Notes under the pieces: model-generated
What the model saw: the letters and a program-made list of their open reading frames with translations, nothing else
What the model was told of the DNA's origin: nothing
The model's database searches: none
Assembly: GCA_947628795.1 (NCBI GenBank)
Contig: CANRBF010000001.1
Span: 186,001-250,000, forward strand
Direction of reading: 5' to 3'
DNA from: an uncultured Monoglobus sp.
Lineage (GTDB): Bacteria; Bacillota; Clostridia; Monoglobales; Monoglobaceae
DNA: 64,000 nt
Translations under genes and position numbers: made by a program
In this document: piece by piece, positions 11,212 through 61,560 of the stretch
Layout: every line of letters starts with the position of its first letter
How positions within the stretch are numbered: position 1 is the stretch's first letter

Positions 11212-11553
11212 TTTGTTTGAACCTGTTTGCCTCGCCCTCCGGGGAGGGAGAGGTGGATTTTCGCCGAAGGCGAAAAGACGGAGAGGGAGGCGAACCAACG
11301 CAGGGCTTTCACTCCCTCTCAGTCTGCTTCGCAGACAGCTCTCCCCCTTAAAAAGGGGGCGAGCCCAGTCCCTACGTTGACCCCTCTCAGTCACCTTCGG
11401 TGACAGCTCTCCCCAAGGGGGCGAGCCTAATATAAACCGTGAAATATTCCTAGTTCCTATTTCCTAGTCTCTACGTTCCCACCTCCGTCAGGCTACGCCT
11501 GACACCTCCTCCCGGGAGGAGGCAAGTTGGCGGATATTATCCGCCCGTTTTTT
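11212..11553. repeat. Intergenic hairpin-repeat block
   Basis: Noncoding, built from short modules that recur at 34417-34930 and 61144-61560. It holds two CTCAG-stem-AGCTC hairpins (11322-11336 and 11390-11404), two GAGGTGG-stem-ACGGAG hairpins (11258-11276, and 11489-11501 on the minus strand), the palindrome CCTCCTCCCGGGAGGAGG near 11506-11523, a TAG-heptamer run on the minus strand (11447-11475) and a GGCGGATATTATCCGCC palindrome followed by TTTTTT (11532-11554). The last part may also serve as a plus-strand terminator. Confidence 0.85.
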
Positions 11554-28487: not shown

Positions 28488-29272
28488 AATAATCTCTCCT
28501 GTTTCTTGATTCTTTGCCGCACCGTCTCATAAAGCAAAACTCCCGCGGCAACCGACGCGTTCAGCGATTCCGCCTCTCCGAGCATCGGTATCTTGACTAA
28601 AAAATCGCAGCTCTCGCGGACGATTCGGCTCATGCCCGCACCCTCGCTGCCGACGACGATCCCCAGCGGACCCGACAGGTCGCTTTCAAAACAACTTCGC
28701 TCGGCCGAAAGATCGGTCCCGGCTATCCACAGCCCGCGCTTTTTGAGCTTTTCTATAGCGGACGTCAGATTGGTCGCCTTGGCGACAAGCGTGTACTCAA
28801 CTGCTCCCGCGCTGACCTTCGCCACCGTGGCGGTCAGCTGCGCGCTGCGGTTCTTGGGAATGATCACGCCGTGAGCTCCCGCGGCGTTGGCTGTCCTGAT
28901 TATGCTTCCCAAATTGTGGGGGTCGGTGATCCCGTCGCAGATAACCACAAAGGGCGGCTCGCCCCGCTCCTCGGCTCGGCGCAGTATATCCTCGATCTCG
29001 GCGTAGGCGTGAGCCGCCGCCAACGCAGCCACGCCCTGATGATTGGCGCCTCCGCACATTTTGTCGAGCCTGCGCGCGTCGGCAAAGTCATACCGCACGC
29101 CGCCGCTCTTGGCGAGGTTTTTGATCTTTTTTATCGCGGGATGGTTCAGCCCGTCCTGAATGTATATTCGGTCTATGGCGCGCCCGGCGCTTAAAGCCTC
29201 GATAACCGGATTCCTGCCGTATATGATATCGGTTCTGTCGCTTCCGCCCGCTCCCTCGTTACGGTTCCGCAT
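28484..29272 (-). CDS. rlmB: TrmH/RlmB family 23S rRNA 2'-O-methyltransferase
   Basis: SPOUT methyltransferase expected to methylate the ribose of G2251 in 23S rRNA. 262 residues. IIYGRNPVIEALSAGRAIDR is the N-terminal substrate-binding motif; knot motifs are DPHNLGSIIRTANAAGAHGV, GIVVGSEGAGMSRIV and ESLNASVAAGVLLYE. First gene of its operon, with promoter 29307-29335. A related TrmH enzyme with another target is possible. Confidence 0.9.
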   Translation of the reverse strand: MRNRNEGAGGSDRTDIIYGRNPVIEALSAGRAIDRIYIQDGLNHPAIKKIKNLAKSGGVRYDFADARRLDKMCGGANHQGVAALAAAHAYAEIEDILRRAEERGEPPFVVICDGITDPHNLGSIIRTANAAGAHGVIIPKNRSAQLTATVAKVSAGAVEYTLVAKATNLTSAIEKLKKRGLWIAGTDLSAERSCFESDLSGPLGIVVGSEGAGMSRIVRESCDFLVKIPMLGEAESLNASVAAGVLLYETVRQRIKKQERLL

Positions 29273-34397: not shown

Positions 34398-34416
34398 GGA
34401 TATTATCCGCCCGTTT

Positions 34417-34930
34417 GCCTCCTCCCGGGAGGAGGTGGCAGGCGTCAGCCTGACGGAGGTGGGAACGTAGGGACTAGGGAATAGGCCTCCCCCCTCAGCC
34501 GCCATTCGGCGGCAGCTCCCCCAAGGGGGCGCCTACCCTAAATTGCCTCCTCCCGGGAGGAGGTGGCAGGCGTCAGCCTGACGGAGGTGGGAACGTAGGG
34601 ACTAGAGAATAGGCCTCCCCCACTCAGCCGCCATTCGGCGGCAGCTCCCCCAAGGGGGCGCCTACCCTAAATTGCCTCCTCCCGGGAGGAGGTGGCAGGC
34701 GTCAGCCTGACGGAGGTGGGAACGTAGGGACTAGAGAATAGGCCTCCCCCACTCAGCCGCCATTCGGCGGCAGCTCCCCCAAGGGGGCGCCTACCCTAAA
34801 TTGCCTCCTCCCGGGAGGAGGTGGCAGGCGTCAGCCTGACGGAGGTGGGAACGTAGGAACTAGAAAATAGGCCTCCTCCCTCAGCCGCCATTCGGCGGCA
34901 GCTCCCCCAAGGGTGCGCCTACCCTAAATT
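34417..34930 (+). repeat. Four tandem 128-129-base hairpin-rich units
   Basis: Unit starts are at 34417, 34545, 34674 and 34803, with a partial fifth (GCCTCCCCTGCGACAG) at 34931. Each unit holds the palindrome CCTCCTCCCGGGAGGAGG, a CAGGC-GTCA-GCCTG hairpin inside GGAGGTGG...ACGGAGGTGG, the sequence ACGTAG plus one or two TAG heptamers, a GCCGCC-ATTC-GGCGGC hairpin inside CTCAG...AGCTC, and CCCCCAAGGGGG. The first three copies are nearly identical; the fourth has several substitutions. No coding frame is convincing. The gap 34286-34960 is otherwise empty. Confidence 0.92.
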
Positions 34931-34960
34931 GCCTCCCCTGCGACAGCGGTGGAAGGGGCC

Positions 34961-61143: not shown

Positions 61144-61560
61144 AAACGCCGTTTGCCTCGCCCCTTGGGGATAATCAGCAAGGGGCGCCTATTTAAAGCC
61201 TCCTCCCGGGAGGAGGTGTCTTTTCGCCAAAGGCGAAAAGACGGAGGTGGGAATGTAGCGATTAGTGATTAGCAAATAGAAATTAGAATAATAGTATACA
61301 AAACGCCGTAGGGGCGGACGCCCTCGACGTCCCGCGGGCGGATATTATCCGCCCGTTTGCCTCCTCCCGGGAGGAGGTGGCTGCGGCTTGCCGCAGACGG
61401 AGGTGGGAACGTAGTGATTAGTAATTAGCGAATAGTGATTAGAATTCCCCCCCTCAGTCGGGCAAAGCCCGCCAGCTCCCCCAAGGGGGCGCCTAACGGA
61501 CAGCCGATCCCCCTACAACCATAGCACGCAAAACGCCGTAGGGGCGGACGACCTCGCATA
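61144..61560 (+). repeat. Intergenic hairpin-repeat block
   Basis: Noncoding. It holds two CCTCCTCCCGGGAGGAGG palindromes (about 61199-61216 and 61361-61378), two GAGGTG-stem-ACGGAGGTGGGA hairpins with different stems (61220-61240 and 61381-61396), two TAG-heptamer runs (about 61254-61293 and 61412-61440), a CTCAG-stem-AGCTC hairpin (61457-61473), CCCCCAAGGGGG, and two copies of CGCCGTAGGGGCGGACG (61304 and 61531). 61561-61687 shows no convincing gene. Confidence 0.88.

Follow-up and report, generated by a model that had tools for sequence, protein, structure and literature searches.

The window, by which the whole 64,000-nucleotide stretch of the Monoglobus sp. genome under analysis is meant, contains three intergenic blocks of hairpins, and all of the hairpins listed for these blocks in a preliminary description were found in place in its sequence (Table 1). 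They had been assigned to two separate frames, CTCAG...AGCTC and GGAGGTG...ACGGAG. This division was not upheld; there is instead a single module read from opposite strands, the second frame reading CTCCGT...CACCTCC on the other strand (the B-form of the module) and CTCAG...CAGCTC constituting the A-form. The module runs in the order F (pyrimidines), CTC[A/C]G, a variable hairpin of 11-30 nt (hp1), CA[G/C]CTC, P (pyrimidines), a loop, and Q (purines) with GAG[C/G]. In both forms the frame is followed by a second hairpin (hp2), made up of the pyrimidine arm P, a short loop and the purine arm Q, which ends in GAGC in the A-form and in GAGG in the B-form. The frame bases change jointly, with CTC[A]G accompanied by CA[G]CTC and GAG[C] (n = 236), CTC[C]G accompanied by CA[C]CTC and GAG[G] (n = 92), and any other combination almost absent (n = 2). 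On the purine-rich strand, the complement of the CTCAG frame, the module reads 5'-GGCTCGCCCC-tt-GGGGAGAGC-TG-[hp1]-C-TGAGAGGGG-3'. Some details of the preliminary description required correction: at 11258 the frame is GAGAGGTGG...GACGGAGAG and not GGAGGTG...ACGGAG; the GTCGGGC/GCCCGCC stem at 61457 is present with one T·C mismatch, which is G·A on the purine-rich strand; and the hairpins of the 34.4 kb block belong to a 129-bp unit that is present there in four tandem copies, not in one.

Table 1. Modules and associated repeat arrays in the window.
Feature	Position	Strand	Details	Basis
B-form module	11229..11289	-	hp1 TTTTCGCC/GGCGAAAA; hp2 11229-11254, hp1 11255-11280, putative third strand ~11281-11289	
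A-form module	11312..11365	+	hp1 GTCTGC/GCAGAC; hp2 CTCTCCCCC...GGGGGCGAG	
A-form module	11380..11427	+	hp1 GTCACC/GGTGAC	
Array of ~7-nt units	11448..11475	unstranded	CTAGTYC-type; adjoins B module	sequence
B-form module	11478..11523	+	hp1 GTCAGGC/GCCTGAC; hp2 CCTCCTCCCGGGAGGAGG	
Four tandem composites, B(-)-spacer-A(+)	34415..34956	unstranded	period 128-129 bp; A hp1 GCCGCC/GGCGGC, B hp1 CAGGC/GCCTG	
B-form module	61198..61247	-	hp1 CTTTTCGCC/GGCGAAAAG; hp2 CCTCCTCCCGGGAGGAGG	
Array of 7-nt units	61254..61285	unstranded	GNGATTA; adjoins 61198 module	sequence
B-form module	61359..61408	-	hp1 CTGCGGC/GCCGCAG	
7-nt-unit spacer	61409..61444	unstranded	within composite 61359-61494	sequence
A-form module	61447..61494	+	hp1 GTCGGGC/GCCCGCC; hp2 CTCCCCCAAGGGGGCG	

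Modules pair head to head in the (-,+) orientation, with their F sides inward and about 45 bp apart, as in the composite formed by the modules at 11229-11289 and 11312-11365. The median gap in such pairs was 43-52 bp in the window's genus, in a wide set of organisms and in Caulobacter, and 38 bp in Bifidobacterium (three pairs). An A-form was joined to a B-form in 22/22 pairs of the window's own genome, 4/4 of the genus, 26/30 of the wide set and 6/7 of Caulobacter, and in 0/3 of Bifidobacterium, where the three pairs seen joined A with A. The composite spacer in the window's genus is often an array of ~7-nt units. Heptamer arrays (GNGATTA / ACTAGGG) were observed as composite spacers at 61254-61285 and 61409-61444 of the window and in the region L069, and ~7-nt arrays also occurred at sites in relatives without a full module; they may represent a separate heptamer repeat used as an insertion context. 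Because further short repeats (AAAACGCCGTAGGGGCGGACGACCTCG, GGGCGGATATTATCCGCCC) intersperse with the modules, at 61284-61356 and 61514-61556 of the window and at many other intergenic sites, the intergenic regions of the genus are mosaics of several repeat families. Another G/C-rich palindromic repeat, CCCCTTCCACCGC...GCGGT CCCCCTCCCCC...GGGGAGGC, was seen on the minus strand at 29000-29120 and in regions L042, L075, L076 and L087, with 5 copies in the portion of the window's genome that was read. It resembles the module in its pyrimidine flank, hairpin and pyrimidine-purine hairpin, and its flank mirrors hp2 poorly.

The window's genome comprises 2.35 Mb in 25 contigs, of which 1.23 Mb was read for full modules, defined as the core or frame with a paired hp1 and a paired hp2, and the same sequence reversed was used as a control. 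The pattern CTCAGN{8,30}AGCTC occurred 247 times in the genome compared with 66 times for the reversed pattern, CCTCAGN{10,26}CAGCTCCC occurred 65 times compared with 0, and about 116 full modules were found in the 1.23 Mb compared with 1 in the reversed sequence; the hairpins are far above chance. Their intergenic location, claimed previously, was confirmed, with only 9 of the 116 module midpoints lying inside ORFs although ORFs make up 86% of the sequence. No copies of the 129-bp unit were found in plasmid and phage sequences.

Beyond this genome, a scan of named genomes located the frame in Clostridia, Bifidobacterium and Caulobacterales and sporadically in other phyla; several hundred chance matches were estimated for such a collection, and single matches therefore prove little. 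More informative are genome-wide counts, which, given against the reversed control, were 342 vs 31 in B. callimiconis, 180 vs 22 in Caulobacter vibrioides T5M6, 52 vs 0 in an Epulopiscium MAG, 48 vs 0 in a Prevotella MAG, 43 vs 1 in a Riflebacteria MAG and 26 vs 1 in Daejeonella lutea. No clear excess was seen in a Bacteroidales MAG (46 vs 45), a Zoogloeaceae MAG (2 vs 2) or B. saimiriisciurei (45 vs 37). When 299 genomes of the window's phylum were sampled evenly, the strict pattern was present in 12, and clear paired modules were found only in the window's genome and in one other (G128). The distribution is wide but patchy, and the taxa represented by MAGs only call for caution. Within the window's genus, some genomes held no copies and others more than 50. 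One complete single-contig genome of the genus (G008) held 0 strict copies compared with 65 in the window's genome, and the two form a natural comparison pair for seeking a required host factor.

The proposal that the stems co-vary while pairing is kept was borne out above an arm-shuffle null in the window's genome, in one Bifidobacterium genome and across phyla. The 116 copies in the window's genome carried 49 distinct hp1 cores with a Watson-Crick fraction of 0.92 (0.80 after arm shuffling), and across organisms and phyla this fraction was also 0.92 (0.60 after shuffling). In B. callimiconis, 78 distinct cores were present among 100 listed copies, 94.5% of the inner pairs were Watson-Crick as opposed to 58.5±2.6% after arm shuffling, and two to four Watson-Crick types were found at most inner pair positions. 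The stems can accordingly be called hypervariable, the term used originally, without reservation in Bifidobacterium callimiconis, but only in part in the window's genome, where they come from a limited allele set, many cores are common to several copies and free variation in the commonest A-form, of 13 nt, is mainly confined to two pairs. The copies are not merely identical recent duplicates. A recurrent sub-form of hp1, GTC-TC-AC-loop-GT-TC-GAC, was observed to keep a symmetric internal TC/TC mismatch across different phyla (L353 region; Bifidobacterium and Clostridia copies).

What the earlier reading overlooked is a further co-variation, in which each base of flank F, lying upstream of CTC[A/C]G, changes together with its counterpart in hp2. 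F mirrors the pyrimidine arm P, with an identity of 262/362 vs 178±7 in a first cross-organism sample. The relationship was expressed as a triplet rule, in which P=C requires F=C and P=T requires F=T or A, and was evaluated against permutation. In counts that ignore kinship, the rule was obeyed in 640/664 pooled cells (465±8 when permuted), P=C being matched by F=C in 529/543 cells and P=T by F=T or A in 111/115; as the cells share descent, a Fisher p-value exaggerates the significance. It held in Clostridia alone (225/232 vs 155±6), in Bifidobacterium alone (143/148 vs 109±6), in the window's genus alone (181/188 vs 152±3) and inside the single B. callimiconis genome (164/168 vs 123±6), which contains two mirror subtypes; the Alphaproteobacteria, in which nearly all F and P bases are C, were compatible with it, though with little power to discriminate. 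Since the rule recurs in separate clades and in several F/P subtypes (AATCC/CCTTT, AACCC/CCCTT, ACTCC/CCTCG, CCCAC/CTCCT, CTCCC/CCCTC and GCCCC/CCCCA), the comparison of sequences argues that it is not an accident inherited once. On the complementary strand the rule translates into G·GC, A·AT and T·AT, the code of the class II purine-motif intrastrand triplex described for BoxC/PIT/TM_ECO (PMC4666352), and the sequence has the order that broadly defines PIT/TM motifs, namely pyrimidine, purine and third strand on one DNA strand with class II triplets. A pyrimidine-motif triplex on the CTCAG strand was rejected as the worse model, since the 44 cells with F=A at P=T would be mismatches there and fit only the T·AT of the purine motif. 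The hairpins of the original description are real, and their constant-looking flank behaves as a third strand co-varying with the second hairpin, which makes the unit a putative triplex motif and not a plain hairpin.

Two further features, both independent of the triplet code, bear on which strand folds. Triloops on the CTCAG strand were TNC rather than GNA in a summed ratio of 272:4 (62:0 in the window's genome, 26:0 in the genus, 123:3 in the wide set, 17:1 in B. callimiconis and 44:0 in Caulobacter), and the purine-rich strand therefore carries C-GNA-G. In works cited by PMC6479982 (Hirao 1994, Yoshizawa 1997), d(C-GNA-G) is described as an extraordinarily stable DNA mini-hairpin. Stem mismatches were G·A or G·T on the purine-rich strand, as opposed to on the other strand, in a ratio of 100:4. 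Loops, mismatches and triplet code all point to purine-rich single-stranded DNA.

It is quite probable that the modules fold as a class II intrastrand triplex on the purine-rich strand, with the variable hp1 as loop 2 and with REPIN-like A/B composites. When single-stranded during replication, repair or supercoiling, the purine-rich strand would fold on itself: the pyrimidine-purine hairpin hp2 would form, hp1 would close via a GNA loop, usually as the d(C-GNA-G) mini-hairpin, and the flank, returning through hp1, would lie in the major groove of hp2 as an antiparallel third strand next to the purine arm. In this fold hp1 would stand in for the short second loop of the BoxC/PIT/TM motifs. Because hp1 would need only to be a hairpin bridging the arms, pairing alone would matter and its sequence could drift freely; new hp1 cassettes would probably be supplied by block exchange between copies. 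A-form and B-form modules facing each other would then make up a REPIN-like composite repeat, and the fold may be the substrate of a trans-acting enzyme, a roadblock or a tolerated recombination by-product. We infer that the triplex also forms in vivo, that recognition is of the structure itself and that the copies spread as selfish repeats through a trans-acting or recombination process. For the E. coli TM_ECO motif, folding into a triplex was observed in vitro, and in vivo DMS footprinting gave no clear sign of a stable triplex (PMC4666352). The broader proposal, that these are selfish or domesticated DNA elements of several phyla whose replication or recognition proceeds via an in vivo triplex read by an enzyme other than a REP transposase, is put forward tentatively, as a serious possibility.

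Turnover was compared at seven orthologous intergenic sites, with flanks in relatives that were 91-95% identical at six sites and 84-95% at the seventh. It proved to be fast, the differences consisting of block swaps, tandem expansion and collapse to a single hp2 hairpin; no target-site duplication and no clean insertion or clean empty site was found at the seven sites. At 11.3 kb, one relative (G002) retains a lone hp2 hairpin, apparently the product of a collapse, and at 34.4 kb it has one composite with other stems, compared with four in the window's genome. In the 61.2 kb half-unit, hp1 is TTTTCGCC/GGCGAAAA in the window's genome and G002, and CTGCGG/CCGCAG in another relative (G004) whose flanks are almost unchanged; hp1 changes here as a block. 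Recombination between half-units is a possible cause, because the window's genome has two of them at this site. We infer that modules move. The replacement of a whole hp1 cassette between close species also lends weight to the best-surviving alternative, in which pairing is kept by mutation and not by selection, polymerase stalling with template switching, or gene conversion between copies, swaps whole stems and complementarity is automatic, as does the occurrence of the stem TCGGGC with both TTT and AAA loops, as loop inversion would give. However, copying yields inverted or direct repeats and not mirror repeats, leaving the match between F and P unexplained, and it cannot give the polarity of GNA loops and mismatches. 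As an account of the module this alternative is rather unlikely, but mutational stem replacement may well explain the diversification of hp1 alongside the triplex reading.

Modules favoured the gaps between convergent genes (35 vs ~22 expected) and were scarce between divergent genes (9 vs ~23 expected). Such a placement would suit transcription terminators or RNA attenuators, with the CTCAG strand transcribed and hp1 and hp2 acting as RNA hairpins at gene ends, and a T run does follow 12/115 copies in the window's genome. The T run is missing after most copies, however, the polarity of loops and mismatches favours the purine-rich strand, the inverted pairs put structure on both strands, and no family was matched in an Rfam 15 scan of the window at gathering thresholds. 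Furthermore, RNA is said to be unable to adopt purine-motif triplexes (PMC4666352), and this explanation is considered improbable.

The likeness to REP/BIME elements, also suggested previously, extends to the inverted, BIME/REPIN-like pairs but not to a linked REP-type Y1 transposase. Classic REP/BIME elements (REPINs) owe their mobility to a RAYT, a REP-associated Y1 tyrosine transposase that recognises hairpin and flank. They resemble the modules in being short, palindromic, intergenic and numerous, in favouring convergent gene ends, in pairing head to head at a nearly constant distance, in forming tandem arrays and in turning over as mosaics. The Pfam family Y1_Tnp (PF01797), however, was absent from the window's genome (G000) and from G002, G004, G005, G009, G010 and G011, and a renewed search found none in 13/15 genomes, including B. 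callimiconis and C. vibrioides T5M6; it is missing from most copy-rich genomes, relatives and distant ones alike. Plain REPs, moreover, need no third co-varying strand, whereas the modules have a triplex third strand and a free hp1 sequence. A RAYT-driven origin is thus largely refuted and very unlikely, and the module is not a REP in the membership sense. Least credible of all is a G-quadruplex or H-DNA built from the G tracts with hp1 incidental. G-rich tracts are indeed present and a G4 was considered for TM_ECO by Holder et al. (PMC4666352), but many subtypes break the tracts (AAAGGGAG, GGAGGAGG), always symmetrically in F and hp2, and a quadruplex would need neither mirror co-variation nor a T·AT code.

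To return to the triplex, the best reading of the sequences is that the modules would be an hp1-carrying variant, with fast turnover, of the BoxC/PIT/TM_ECO intrastrand triplex repeats (Holder et al. 2015; PMC4666352). Common to both are the pyrimidine-purine-third strand order, a G/C-rich class II code of ~8-9 triplets, the G·A mismatch CTCGCCCC/GGGGAGAG, an intergenic location and a copy number that differs strongly between relatives; inverted pairs join type A with type B, as E. coli TM pairs always do (PMC4666352), the Bifidobacterium pairs excepted. In contrast to the 3 nt of TM_ECO, loop 2 of the module is a co-varying hairpin of 11-30 nt with a GNA apex, too long for the published ITxF search, which allows loops of 1-6 nt, and whereas the reported range of TM_ECO is proteobacterial (PMC4666352), the module spans several phyla. 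The strict TM_ECO/BoxC consensus, CCCTCNCCC-N3-6-GGGNGAGGG-N3-GGGNGAGGG, had 0 matches in all DNA examined. Caulobacter CIR elements (Chen & Shapiro 2003), as described in PMC2229807, are likewise alphaproteobacterial intergenic units of ~110 bp with two inverted-repeat arms and a linker, and bear GANTC at the loop of one arm. Identity with CIR was rejected, GANTC being present in 0/10 of the Caulobacter composites examined.

Small mobile hairpins in which stems vary and pairing is kept include the mitochondrial double-hairpin elements and GC clusters and the cyanobacterial small dispersed repeats, some of which are associated with heptamer arrays. We know of no third-strand co-variation in these mitochondrial and cyanobacterial repeats. 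What is new in the modules is threefold: a hairpin in the place of loop 2, a range that extends over phyla and co-variation among three strands. The structure is real and looks selected, and the family is apparently undescribed, as no named family with the module's frame was found in the largely open-access literature searched.

It has long been asked whether DNA triplexes arise in cells and have a role there. If this reading is true, the triplet co-variation would, to our knowledge, be the first case in which comparing sequences has given evidence of a functional DNA triplex. Gut and environmental bacteria carry the modules in abundance, and no mobiliser of them is known. Evolution would here be keeping a third strand matched to its duplex by a triplet code, both inside single genomes and in several lineages that are not related, with natural variants that make the question testable. 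The co-varying bases of the module appear to be evidence that DNA triplexes matter in living cells, and that the purine-rich strand is selected to fold.
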